NCBI GenBank assembly: GCA_016200325.1
Contig: JACQEZ010000011.1
Span: 1 to 64,000 of the forward strand
DNA: 64,000 bases
Direction: 5' to 3'
Origin: Candidatus Manganitrophaceae bacterium
Lineage (GTDB): Bacteria; Nitrospirota; Nitrospiria; SBBL01; Manganitrophaceae
Shown here: piece by piece, positions 1 to 4,503 of the stretch
Layout: each line of letters opens with the position of its first letter
Position numbering within the stretch: the stretch's first letter is position 1
Notes under the pieces: generated by a model
What the model was told of the DNA's origin: nothing
The model's database searches: none
The model's input: the letters and a program-made list of their open reading frames with translations, nothing else
Made by a program: the position numbers and the translations under genes

Positions 1-174
1 GCGTGGATGCTGCAGGAAAGGGGCGATGTTCTCTTTGCTGCCGGTGAAGTAGTTGTCCAGCGAGAGCACTTCATGCCCCTGCCCCAGCAGCGCTTCACAC
101 AAATGCGAGCCTAAAAACCCCGCTCCCCCGGTTACCAAAATCCTTTTTTTCTCCGAACCGATCTTTAACTGCAT
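1..174 (-). CDS. NAD-dependent epimerase, UDP-glucuronate decarboxylase-like (5' part only)
   Basis: Only the first 58 codons are present; the gene runs off the left edge. Starting at the ATG at 174, the product has a Rossmann-fold NAD-binding motif ([11 protein letters not shown], residues 15-25), followed by an acidic residue at the end of strand 2 ([13 protein letters not shown]). This wording is typical of UDP-glucuronate decarboxylase (UXS), which makes UDP-xylose for surface polysaccharide, and of close UDP-glucose 4-epimerase-type extended SDRs. Catalytic YxxxK lies outside the window, so the exact substrate is not proven. The gene reads away from its neighbour and is preceded by about 290 bases without a convincing gene. 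Confidence 0.8.
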
Positions 175-464
175 CAGAATCTCCTCATTCTTTAGGTCAT
201 TCAAATCAGAAATCGATACAACACTGCATCAAAGCTGCAACCTTTTTCGCAGAACCTCATCATCGGCTGAACACCGCAGACACTTCTCCACTTTCAGAAA
301 TGACCCATTTACCTAGAGCTTCAAAGGCGGGTGAGCCCCTTTCGTTGAACCATCCTCATTCTAAGATGGACATGAAATCATCTAATAATGAAATCATTTA
401 ATAAGGATAAGCAAAAGCAGTACCGTTAAGAACCGCTGAGGCGAAATTGATTTATTAAAATCTA

Positions 465-2201
465 TCAAAATCTAATTAAAGAGAGGCGTTGAAGTTCCTG
501 TTGAAGCAATATGCCGTAGTGGACCACCCATCTTTTGAATCGGGCTCCGTCCGGATCTGGACCGAGCGTCTCCGAGGCCAGATGGGTATATCCGAGCCGA
601 TAAGAGAGATAGACGATTTTGTAGAAGGGGAGGCGGGTCCTCAGCGCGGCATCGTCCATAAGCGATTGATACCGATCGATCAGCAGCGTCTCTTCCCCTC
701 CCGTCAGGCCGAATTCGATCGCAGCGCCGGCGATGTCCCATGCGATGTCTTGGCAGCCGGGGAAAAAATGATCATCGTGATGATCGACCCCGTCGGTCTT
801 GATATATCCTGACCCGGTACGTAGCCACTCGTGCGGCAGCATCCGTCCATCCACCGCAATCGGCCGGGCCGTCTCAAAACAGGTCCGAAAAGGTTCAAGC
901 CGGCCGACTGCTTCCGTCCACCGCTCCCCCAACCCCTCGCCGACGTTGACTCGGACCATCTCGATTATTTCGTCAAATGAACGGCACTGGGAGACAGGAA
1001 AAGTTTGACTCAGATAAGCAAGATAGCGGGCCATCGTCTGAAGAAGGTCCGAATCGATCTCTCCCTTTGAAAGAGGCGACCCCTGGATAAACGGGGTGCT
1101 CAAAAAGCCCCGTTGGAGATCGAGCGGCTCCGGGGCAAACCCCGCCGCGGCAAGCCGCTCTGCCCGTGATCGCCTCGATGTTCCATATCGGCCGAGCCCC
1201 ACAAACTTCAAAAAAAGCGGTCTCTCGCCGGGACGCTCCGGCGTTGAGGCGAGGTATTTCCGGCGCTCATGCTGCGGGTGGACGGCGGGATACTCCGATT
1301 CCGTTTGGTAGAAAAGAGATCGCCACCGGCCGGCGGAGAGATCGCGAAGCGGCCGGTTGGGAGAAAGATCCAAGAAGCGGAGGTTGAAAGGAACCGTATA
1401 CTTCCGATGTCTCTCCCAGCGCGCCCTGGCCTCCTTGGACCGGAAGCGAGAGGGGTCCGGCTCCCAACTCGGGAAGAAGGCGATCCGCTCCTCCGCAATC
1501 CCCAGCTCGGAGAGCCGTTGCGCCACGCAGGTGATGGAAGAGCCGCTCAAGCCGGGCCCTTCATCGACAATGAGGTAGTGTGCGCCGCTCGGCCGGCGCA
1601 GATCGGCCTCCAGTGCGGAGGAGAGGCGAAGGCGTCGGTCAAACGGATGGCCGCGCGGCCGGACCGTGTGAACCTGAACCGGACAACCCTCCCCCTCCAG
1701 CGCGGCGGCCACCACGGCGGAGAGGCTGGCGCCGATGCTTCGAAGACCGATGCAGACCGCCTTTCGCGGGCCGGCCTCTTGGAAAAACCGGGTGGCCGCT
1801 TCGAGGTAGCTTTCAGGATAGAGGGCATAGTAGGCATACCCCTCCGGAGTCCGCGCCACAACGCGGGGAGGAAGCGGCGACGCAGCAATCTCCGAGAGGA
1901 TGCCGCAAAATCGATCGATCCACAGGGGGACCTCACGGGATCGCCGCTGCAGGCTGAGGCGGAAGAGGTGTCCGACACACCGGGCTCCCTCTCGAAATCG
2001 CTTCAGCAGGGGCGACTCGATGTCGATCTCGGGAGAGAGGGCATCGGCGACCGCCGACTCGAGCACCCCCCACTCGATGAGGAGCGCCACAACCGGGTCG
2101 TGCGTCTCAAGACCCACATTCAATCGATCGACCTGCGCTTGGAGCCGACCGAGTCGATCGGCCGGGTCGATCCGCTCCTCTCTTCCTCCATATACAATCA
2201 T
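465..2201 (-). CDS. phosphoribosyltransferase-like / kinase-like fusion protein
   Basis: A 578-residue protein that I do not recognise as a named enzyme. The first ~140 residues have no clear motif. Residues ~144-230 look like a type I phosphoribosyltransferase: IGLRSIGASL (151-160) sits where the pyrophosphate loop should be and YLIVDEGPGLSGSS (209-222) fits the PRPP-binding loop (four hydrophobics, two acids, small residues, G-x-S). Residues ~320-500 look like a phosphotransferase of the aminoglycoside/choline kinase type: LFLKFVGLG (329-337), then an acid/histidine-rich loop (GVDHHDDHFFPG, 471-482) and QDIAWDIAGAAIE (484-496). No signal peptide. It lies 78 bases downstream of pncB on the same strand, so probably shares its transcript and may act on a ribosylated metabolite. 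The fold assignments are inferred from motifs only. Confidence 0.7.
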   Translation of the reverse strand: MIVYGGREERIDPADRLGRLQAQVDRLNVGLETHDPVVALLIEWGVLESAVADALSPEIDIESPLLKRFREGARCVGHLFRLSLQRRSREVPLWIDRFCGILSEIAASPLPPRVVARTPEGYAYYALYPESYLEAATRFFQEAGPRKAVCIGLRSIGASLSAVVAAALEGEGCPVQVHTVRPRGHPFDRRLRLSSALEADLRRPSGAHYLIVDEGPGLSGSSITCVAQRLSELGIAEERIAFFPSWEPDPSRFRSKEARARWERHRKYTVPFNLRFLDLSPNRPLRDLSAGRWRSLFYQTESEYPAVHPQHERRKYLASTPERPGERPLFLKFVGLGRYGTSRRSRAERLAAAGFAPEPLDLQRGFLSTPFIQGSPLSKGEIDSDLLQTMARYLAYLSQTFPVSQCRSFDEIIEMVRVNVGEGLGERWTEAVGRLEPFRTCFETARPIAVDGRMLPHEWLRTGSGYIKTDGVDHHDDHFFPGCQDIAWDIAGAAIEFGLTGGEETLLIDRYQSLMDDAALRTRLPFYKIVYLSYRLGYTHLASETLGPDPDGARFKRWVVHYGILLQQELQRLSLIRF

Positions 2202-2279
2202 CGCAGCGGCTCAGGAGATTAAACGCTCCCGATCAGTTTACAACGATGTTCATCCGCGAGGGAAGCGGCGCAACCTCGC

Positions 2280-3614
2280 TCATTGTTGCCGATCGACCGT
2301 CTTCGCCAGGCTCTCCAGGGAGGGAGCGATTCGGACCGGATAGGGCGGAGCCTCCTCCAATTGCCGAAGCGGTTCGGGAAGCCGGGCCAGCGCGGCGGCG
2401 GTGCGCTTGCGCGACTCCGCCAGCGAAGGAGCAGGGCCGACCGGTCGGCCGGCGCGCATCACCGGCTGGAGAAGCGGCTCTCCTTCCGGTCGATCGTCTA
2501 ACAGAGCGACCAGATCGTCATGCATCCGTCCATCCGGTCCGGTGCGGCGGTAGACCTGTTTTCGTCCCGGCCAGGTGGCCTTTCCCTCGGAGCGCTTGCG
2601 CCGGGGCCGTCCGGCATACTCCTGAAGTTTGTAGGCGCAGTCCAGGTAAGGGACATCGGCGGAGGTATCGAGCCGAGAGCCGATTCCGAAACCGTCGATC
2701 GGCGCGCCGGACATCAGCAGCTCCCGCACCCGGAACTCATCGAGATTGCCGCTCGCCCAGATTTTCACCTCCGCCAGCCCCCCTGCGTCGAGAATTCGCC
2801 GCACCTGTTTTGCATGGGCGGCCAGGTCGCCGCTGTCGAGCCGGACGCCTTGAATCGAAATTCCGGACCCCTTCAGCCGGGGCGCCAGCGAGACCACCTT
2901 CGCCGCCCCCTTTTCGGTGTCATATGTATCGATGAGAAAGACCACATTATTGGGGTGGGCTTTTGCGAATCTAAAAAACGCGTCGGCTTCATCATCATGC
3001 GCCTGGATGAAGGAGTGGGCCAGGGTCCCATACGACGGGACGCCATAGATCGCTTCGGCAAGCACCGTCGCCGAGCCGGTGAAGCCCGCCAGGTAAGAGG
3101 CGCGCGCCGCCATCAGACCGGCTTCGGCGCCGTGCGCGCGCCGCAGACCAAAATCGATCAGCAGCTTGCCTGGCGCCGCGAGAACCGACCGGACCGCCTT
3201 GGAAGCGATGAGGATCTGGAAATGAAGCAGATTGATCAAGCGGGTCTCAATGAATTGCGCCTGCGGCAGCGGGGCGGTCACCCGGACCATCGGCTCGTTC
3301 GGGAAGAAGAGGGTTCCCTCGGGCATTGCATCGACATCGCCGGCAAAACGAAACCGCGAGAGGGCGTCGATAAACTCCCGGCTGAACCGTCCGCTCTCGG
3401 CGAGCCATTGCAGCTCCTGGGAAGTAAAGCGAAGCTGCTCCAGATAATCCAACAGCGGCGCCAATCCGGCGGCGACGAAGAAATTCCGACCGACCGGCCG
3501 GGTACGGATGAAGAATTCAAAGACCGCCGTCTCCGCCATCCCCTCTTCAAAATACCCCTGAAGCATGGTGAGCTGGTAGAGATCGGTCAACAACGGGCTG
3601 GAGGGAGAGAACAA
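2280..3614 (-). CDS. pncB: nicotinate phosphoribosyltransferase
   Basis: 444 residues, the usual size. The enzyme joins nicotinate to PRPP (with ATP hydrolysis) to give nicotinate mononucleotide, the salvage entry to NAD. The N-terminus LLTDLYQLTMLQGYFEEGM is the family signature; SYGTLAHSFIQAH and GVRLDSGDLAAH, followed by KIWASGNLDEF and DGFGIGSRLDTSADVP, are the conserved phosphate/nicotinate-binding stretches. An AAAGGAG Shine-Dalgarno precedes the ATG, and a sigma70-like promoter lies 40-70 bases upstream. It is first of a two-gene unit with the PRTase/kinase fusion downstream. Confidence 0.96.
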   Translation of the reverse strand: MFSPSSPLLTDLYQLTMLQGYFEEGMAETAVFEFFIRTRPVGRNFFVAAGLAPLLDYLEQLRFTSQELQWLAESGRFSREFIDALSRFRFAGDVDAMPEGTLFFPNEPMVRVTAPLPQAQFIETRLINLLHFQILIASKAVRSVLAAPGKLLIDFGLRRAHGAEAGLMAARASYLAGFTGSATVLAEAIYGVPSYGTLAHSFIQAHDDEADAFFRFAKAHPNNVVFLIDTYDTEKGAAKVVSLAPRLKGSGISIQGVRLDSGDLAAHAKQVRRILDAGGLAEVKIWASGNLDEFRVRELLMSGAPIDGFGIGSRLDTSADVPYLDCAYKLQEYAGRPRRKRSEGKATWPGRKQVYRRTGPDGRMHDDLVALLDDRPEGEPLLQPVMRAGRPVGPAPSLAESRKRTAAALARLPEPLRQLEEAPPYPVRIAPSLESLAKTVDRQQ

Positions 3615-3837: not shown

Positions 3838-4503
3838 ATGCTCCTTCGGCAGGCACAGCGGATCTTCTTCATCTTTTCCCTCTTCATCGGACTCACACTC
3901 CCCTGTTATGCCTTTGAGCAGTCGATTGAGTTCCTGCCGGGCTACAAGGCGCCCGATTCGGCCTCGGATGGAGCGCCGACGTTCGATCTGCGCTACTTTC
4001 TCCATTTCCCCTCTCTTTATCTCTCGGCCGGCATCGGCATCGGATACCTTCAGGCGCCGGCGAATCACAAAAACCTGGAGATCGGGAGCAAGATCAAAAT
4101 GATGCCGGTCGGCTTCACCCTCCGGCTGAGCCCTCCGATTGCTGAATCATTCACCCCCTTCTTTGAGGTCGGCTTGGATCGGCTCGCCCAGCTTCACTAT
4201 CGACTCGATCCCGCCGTCGATACCGGCGCCTCCGACACCTGCGACACCGAGTTCTTCGGATTCTGCCACACCACCTCATTGCACCGCAAAGCCTATGCCT
4301 ATCGGCTCGGTATCGGGATCGAGAAGGTCTTTGCCTCCGGAATCGGCTTGGGCTTTCAGTACACCTATCGGATCGGCAAACCGGTCGACAAATCGGTTAA
4401 TGAGACACCGAGCTTCGGCATCCTTCCGGTACAGACCACGCATGAAGGCCTGTTCGATATTCAACAATCGCTTTTTTCGCTTCTGATGAGCTATCATTTC
4501 TAG
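3838..4503 (+). CDS. predicted outer-membrane beta-barrel protein, unknown function
   Basis: 221 residues. A signal peptide is visible (basic start MLLRQAQR, hydrophobic IFFIFSLFIGLTLPCYA, cleavage near residue 26). The mature part alternates hydrophobic and polar residues in short strands with many Gly/Tyr, and ends in an aromatic (...LFSLLMSYHF), the usual C-terminal signature of an outer-membrane barrel. A CDTEFFGFC segment near residue 140 could form an extracellular-loop disulfide. A GAGAGG Shine-Dalgarno lies seven bases before the ATG. Divergent from pncB, upstream of tRNA-Leu. No specific family recognised; an OmpW/porin-like fold is the best guess. Confidence 0.8.
   Translation: MLLRQAQRIFFIFSLFIGLTLPCYAFEQSIEFLPGYKAPDSASDGAPTFDLRYFLHFPSLYLSAGIGIGYLQAPANHKNLEIGSKIKMMPVGFTLRLSPPIAESFTPFFEVGLDRLAQLHYRLDPAVDTGASDTCDTEFFGFCHTTSLHRKAYAYRLGIGIEKVFASGIGLGFQYTYRIGKPVDKSVNETPSFGILPVQTTHEGLFDIQQSLFSLLMSYHF

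Follow-up and report, generated by a model that had tools for sequence, protein, structure and literature searches.

What is the 578-residue protein encoded just downstream of pncB, the gene for nicotinate phosphoribosyltransferase, near the start of a Candidatus Manganitrophaceae contig? The stretch analysed here (the window) comprises the first 64,000 nucleotides of contig JACQEZ010000011.1. An earlier note on it had read the protein as a phosphoribosyltransferase (PRTase)-like segment fused to a phosphotransferase-like C-terminus, had placed it in a unit with pncB, and had suggested either salvage or modification of a nucleotide- or nicotinamide-derived compound or a part in a stress or defence response using phosphoribosyl pyrophosphate (PRPP) chemistry. 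Our analysis retains the layout and replaces the salvage role. We hold with high confidence that the fusion gene is a standing component of a conserved gene cassette marked by the NCBIfam families TIGR04290 and TIGR04295, the product of which is probably a glycan or glycoside with inositol and xylose. The gene and the two predicted halves of its product are the following.

465..2201, minus strand: PRTase-like/kinase-like fusion gene, ATG start, 578 amino acids, stop included in the coordinates
1350..2201, minus strand: residues 1-284, a helical segment (residues about 1-106) and a type-I-PRTase-like domain (about 107-284), predicted with AlphaFold2 and Foldseek
468..1349, minus strand: residues 285-578, a choline-kinase/APH-like domain, predicted from a Foldseek match to LicA (4r77) and a profile match to LicA

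The open reading frame (ORF) 465-2201 is a genuine, old gene, because 34 sequences of several phyla align with it over the full length with 44 invariant columns, at 32-57% identity to the window protein. The start MIVYG or MLVYG is kept among the aligned homologues, in agreement with the ATG. The motifs quoted in the earlier note, YLIVDEGPGLSGSS, GVDHHDDHFFPG and QDIAWDIAG, are all present in the translation, and across the alignment VDEGPGLSGSS is invariant or nearly so and QDIAWDIAG nearly invariant. A scan of species-representative genomes yielded 36 loci, and the family occurs in alphaproteobacteria, Nitrospirota, Acidobacteriota, Gemmatimonadota, Fibrobacterota and others. One side of its tree consists of Pseudomonadota (alphaproteobacterial) plus Bdellovibrionota, the other of a mixture of Nitrospirota, Acidobacteriota, Chloroflexota, Gemmatimonadota and Fibrobacterota, a split with 100/100 support. 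Behind the metal-binding Asp each side has its own motif: DHxxxHDLxG in the former, including its alphaproteobacterial members, versus DHHDDHFFPG, limited to one clade of the family, in the latter. Searched as a single sequence, the protein matched nothing in Pfam, NCBIfam, PADLOC, PHROGs or PDB. A Pfam scan of 32 family members returned chance matches only, with no PRTase or kinase family: none of the 32 matches PF00156, APH or choline kinase. Annotated records list the gene as 'hypothetical protein' or have no entry for it. The literature search found no described enzyme of this layout, as the earlier note had supposed, and nothing relevant on the family. The family is undescribed and widespread, a new domain combination made from known folds.

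Across genomes, the fusion gene tracks TIGR04290. A count over 198 phylum genomes gives only four with the full-length family: G000, G135, G152 (which has two copies) and G162. TIGR04290 scores over cut-off in exactly those same four; the reciprocal of the number of possible four-genome subsets of 198 is about 1.6e-8, a hand calculation that ignores kinship, and the carriers span three families. Within the window's genus, four genomes have both the fusion gene and TIGR04290, and two have neither. Elsewhere, TIGR04290 is over cut-off in 27 of 28 carrier genomes versus 0 of 14 control genomes. Even where the fusion gene stands apart from the cassette (L007, L010, L011, L016 and L033), TIGR04290 is still in the genome. 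Two further weak matches of the phylum scan were dropped, L053 as a generic APH+AAA-type kinase and L054 as an unrelated ORF. The two full-length copies of G152 lie on different contigs (L058 and L059).

We clustered the neighbour genes over 39 fusion loci and checked their identities with NCBIfam and Pfam. Glyco_trans_1_2-type glycosyltransferases occur in 28 of the 39 loci and SDR epimerases/decarboxylase in 24, while 21 loci have a GT4-type glycosyltransferase and 21 a glycosyl-hydrolase-like protein, which records from Sinorhizobium, Roseomonas and Azospirillum list as 'beta-xylosidase'. The TIGR04290 methyltransferase and inositol-3-phosphate synthase (INO1) are found in 20 loci each, followed by a nucleotidyltransferase (15), a histidine phosphatase (13) and the TIGR04295 B12-radical-SAM protein (12). 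An exporter also belongs to the cassette. The TIGR04290 and TIGR04295 proteins score above cut-off, and an intact orthologue of the UDP-glucuronate decarboxylase (UXS) matches UXS1 in PDB with E=2.4e-123. The same gene set is seen in plasmid records of Sinorhizobium meliloti (pSymB), Roseomonas mucosa and Azospirillum brasilense. No paper on the TIGR04290/TIGR04295 cassette was found in the literature, and nothing relevant on BtrL, an enzyme of aminoglycoside ribosylation considered below.

The cassette contains two kinds of INO1/phosphatase pair (L077:5437-7365; L006:3011-4722; L024:4550-6237). In the window's genus, a 449-residue INO1 (NAD_binding_5 + Inos-1-P_synth) is directly followed by a DSP-type phosphatase, and in alphaproteobacteria a shorter, mycothiol-type INO1 is followed by a histidine phosphatase nearest to phosphoserine-phosphatase (PspA)/CobC-type enzymes (ribazole_cobC 7e-34, below cut-off). 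The two pairs are apparently a non-orthologous replacement of one step. The mycothiol pathway was considered as the role of the cassette and rejected: INO1 scores 547 bits with the mycothiol_INO1 model (cut-off 638) and PIG-L and GNAT genes are present, but no MshC-type ligase is among the neighbour families scanned. Some rhizobial loci (L030, L034 and L046, e.g. L046:9728-12203) also carry a polysaccharide pyruvyl transferase and an FrhB-type (coenzyme F420 hydrogenase-like) protein in the cassette.

In the window's own genome the cassette is distributed over two contigs. The window starts at the first base of its contig (C11), inside the UXS gene:

1..204, minus strand: UXS, first 68 residues, truncated where the contig stops; contig C4 has the remainder of the gene at its end

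Contig C4 ends at 111,781, inside the remaining UXS part (L077:19127-19780), and carries TIGR04290, TIGR04295 and the remaining cassette genes. The two contigs are probably adjacent, with UXS split by an assembly gap, and the gene order across them is that of a single-contig relative (G005). This order runs pncB, fusion gene, UXS, an MsbA/glucan-exporter-like ABC transporter, the glycosyl-hydrolase-like gene (opposite strand), two SDRs, TIGR04295, four glycosyltransferases, INO1, the DSP-type phosphatase, an Nramp-type transporter, a glycosyltransferase, the nucleotidyltransferase and TIGR04290; beyond it, the window genome has a PIG-L deacetylase and one more glycosyltransferase. In this genus the Nramp-type metal transporter gene is at L077:4156-5412, within the glycan cassette.

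We then consider what the protein itself looks like. Structure models were built with AlphaFold2 from 32 family sequences, and residue conservation was counted in 34 sequences. The full-length model has a pLDDT of 91.2 and a pTM of 0.91; residues 1-284 modelled alone reach 92.1 and 0.92. Foldseek against PDB with residues 1-284 is led by type I PRTases, with human HGPRT (3gep) at E=1.5e-3 and prob 1.00, then Legionella HGPRT, Giardia GPRT, Leishmania HGPRT and later APRT (prob 0.96-1.00), indicative of a core PRTase fold at moderate match strength. Three conserved motifs lie in this half.

1731..1754, minus strand: loop-I (pyrophosphate-loop)-like segment CIGLRSIG, residues 150-157; G152, R154 and G157 invariant
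1641..1661, minus strand: RPRGHPF, residues 181-187; R181, P182, G184 and F187 invariant; aligns with RKPGKLP of APRT
1536..1577, minus strand: PRPP-loop-like motif YLIVDEGPGLSGSS, residues 209-222

Within the last of these, D213, E214, G215, P216, G217, S219, G220, S221 and S222 are invariant (34/34). By hhalign with APRTs of related genomes the three motifs match in order (GIRSIG/GIESRG, RPRGHPF/RKPGKLP, VDEGPGLSGSS/VDDLLATGGT) at a weak E=0.0027. There was no significant sequence or profile match to type I PRTases; the N-domain profile alone gave chance matches only in PDB, and comparison with HPRT, PyrR, OPRT, ComF and PRPP synthetase was uninformative, a sensible register being obtained with APRT only.

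The C-terminal half is matched more strongly. For the full model, LicA (4r77) ranks first in PDB by Foldseek (E=1.2e-7, prob 1.00, TMt 0.60-0.63), and the first 47 matches are choline/ethanolamine, homoserine or fructosamine kinases, with malto-kinases also within the first 50, indicative of a bilobal APH-like kinase fold. A PDB profile search independently retrieves LicA over this half (E=0.087), aligning D451 with the catalytic Asp and D470 with the metal Asp. The profile comparison of the fusion protein with APH is weak.

825..851, minus strand: DGRMLPHEW, residues 451-459, at the position of HIDLVPEN in LicA; D451 invariant, E458 in 31/34
735..800, minus strand: KTDGVDHHDDHFFPGCQDIAWD, residues 468-489; K468, D470 (metal-Asp position), D473, H474, Q484, W488 and D489 invariant

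The predicted catalytic and metal-binding Asp are thus kept in 34/34 sequences, as is D489, and an invariant E-x-x-K segment lies near the position of the choline kinase nucleotide loop. Structure prediction, which the earlier note had named as the test that could overturn its layout, returns both folds, and we consider the two fold assignments together quite likely. The layout is right at the fold level because of the Foldseek and profile matches; the activity of either half we infer.

Taken with the cassette, these folds suggest a ribosyl-transfer mechanism. Inositol-3-phosphate synthase and a phosphatase would supply an inositol acceptor, on which the UDP-glucuronate decarboxylase, epimerases, nucleotidyltransferase and GT4-type glycosyltransferases would build. 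The PRTase domain would take 5-phosphoribosyl from PRPP and attach it to a hydroxyl group of the inositol or sugar intermediate; the CobC/phosphoserine-phosphatase-like (or DSP-type) cassette phosphatase could strip the 5-phosphate, leaving a ribosyl unit; and the C-terminal domain would use ATP to phosphorylate a sugar-like substrate, or only bind it. We infer PRPP as the donor, the identity of the acceptor, the kinase activity, the removal of the 5-phosphate and the order of the steps. A sequence in which 5-phosphoribose is transferred and a phosphatase then acts is familiar from aminoglycoside ribosylation by BtrL/BtrP and from the CobT/CobC cobamide pathway. The likeness lies in the proposed logic only, a functional analogy and not a claim of homology for the PRTase domain. 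The cassette His-phosphatase does score against ribazole_cobC. In a stronger version, the protein would be a bifunctional phosphoribosyltransferase-kinase and represent a new enzyme family, its reaction being the ribosylation of an inositol-based glycan or glycoside; this would be a new use of PRPP in bacterial glycan chemistry by the type-I-PRTase fold. We regard this version as conceivable but doubtful.

Several observations weigh against the ribosyl-transfer proposal. The N-domain fold match is moderate, with none at E<=0.001 and TMt of 0.38-0.54, periplasmic binding proteins are also among its Foldseek matches, and the profile alignment with APRT reaches a probability of only 11%. The canonical PRPP motif consists of four hydrophobic positions, an acidic pair, four further residues and G-x-T/S; here the motif reads YLIV-DE-GPGLS-G-SS, one residue over, with five rather than four residues before the Gly. 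In the kinase-like half, the Asn of HxDxxxxN has no conservation (P, A, R, L, V or S at D+5, with a Glu at D+7 in 31/34), and the beta-3 Lys is not strict (K in 29, R in 4, S in 1). One carrier, L002 (Acidobacteria), has no TIGR04290 over cut-off. For several non-alphaproteobacterial loci the stretches fetched showed no INO1, and an inositol acceptor may therefore not be universal. Finally, the cassette phosphatases may equally serve only inositol-3-phosphate dephosphorylation, and we therefore hold the whole reading, the fused cassette protein together with its ribosyl-transfer mechanism, as a tentative one, somewhat short of even chances.

The odd PRPP-like loop, and a moderate N-domain match set against a strong kinase match, would also suit an N-domain that has the PRTase fold but no catalytic role and serves, as in PurR, to sense PRPP or bind a phosphosugar, with the kinase-like domain as the actual enzyme, for example an inositol or sugar kinase gated by the N-domain. 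Yet the loop, like two other motifs, is invariant throughout several phyla, which is unusual for a mere sensor, and D213/E214 and SGSS are the residue types of a catalytic PRTase; we regard this explanation as unlikely. Conversely, the kinase-like domain could be a pseudokinase or substrate-binding module, making the protein a phosphoribosyltransferase with an accessory domain. Loss of the catalytic-loop Asn, replacement of the beta-3 Lys in 5/34 and the invariant E-x-x-K fit this, but D451, K468, D470 and D489, catalytic and metal Asp positions included, are invariant, and we find it rather improbable. With the two key Asp present but the usual Asn and a strict Lys absent, this half could be either a divergent kinase or a module that only binds.

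How, then, does pncB relate to the ribosyl-transfer proposal?

2280..3614, minus strand: pncB, nicotinate phosphoribosyltransferase, NF006696 E=3.5e-192, over cut-off

This gene, correctly identified in the earlier note, lies upstream of the fusion gene in the same direction with a 78 bp gap and no terminator-like site between them, and the order is the same in all four genomes of the genus that have the fusion gene, which would suit a salvage enzyme working with pncB. However, these four are the only ones of the 39 loci where pncB adjoins the fusion gene; alphaproteobacteria and other phyla have glycan genes beside it and no adjacent pncB, and across genomes the fusion gene tracks TIGR04290 instead. 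In G162 (Nitrospirota) a distant pncB homologue (30% identity) is about 3 kb off on the opposite strand, which leaves the genus-only adjacency unchanged. A functional unit with pncB is not supported, the adjacency being confined to the window's genus; pncB is probably not part of the cassette system, and a nucleotide or nicotinamide salvage role is highly improbable. A stress- or defence-response protein with PRPP chemistry is scarcely credible: some copies have general-stress-type genes (DUF1003, YsnF/AvaK) in their vicinity, but there is no PADLOC match up to E=5 and no PHROG match, the context is conserved and biosynthetic, and the homologue search proposed in the earlier note, which did find pncB neighbours in the genus, found no flanking toxin or defence genes. 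On its other side, pncB adjoins an outer-membrane beta-barrel-like protein (3838-4503 of the window; PF13505 below cut-off) that is conserved in the genus.

Compared with known systems, the protein shares with APRT/HGPRT (type I PRTases, PF00156) the predicted fold, the order of loop I (G-x-R-S-x-G), RPxGHPF and the PRPP-like loop, and an acidic pair followed by SGSS; it differs in lacking a sequence match, in the extra residue of the PRPP loop, in the additional N-terminal helical segment and in having no nucleobase-salvage context. With the LicA/APH superfamily (PF01636 and relatives) it shares the C-terminal fold, the catalytic and metal Asp positions and the WD[IL]A motif, but it has no Pfam match, D-x-[RK]-x-x-x-x-E in place of HxDxxxxN, DxxDH at the metal Asp, and a position behind a PRTase-like domain. 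Its gene lies inside the TIGR04290/TIGR04295 cassette (NCBIfam hypothetical equivalogs meth_Rta_06860 and B12_rSAM_oligo) or in the same genome, and unlike these two families the fusion protein still lacks both a name and a model. The joining of a PRTase to a kinase has a precedent in Zobellia, where HGPRT (purine salvage) and adenylate kinase are reported to be combined in one polypeptide (PMC7326950); compared with the fusion described there, the window protein has a choline-kinase/APH-like kinase half and a glycan synthesis context.

A widespread family without a model can now be assigned both a domain layout and membership of a conserved cassette. Copies on pSymB of Sinorhizobium meliloti and in Azospirillum make the family testable in ordinary laboratory strains. 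If true, ribosyl transfer would be a new kind of PRPP-using step in bacterial glycan or glycoside synthesis.

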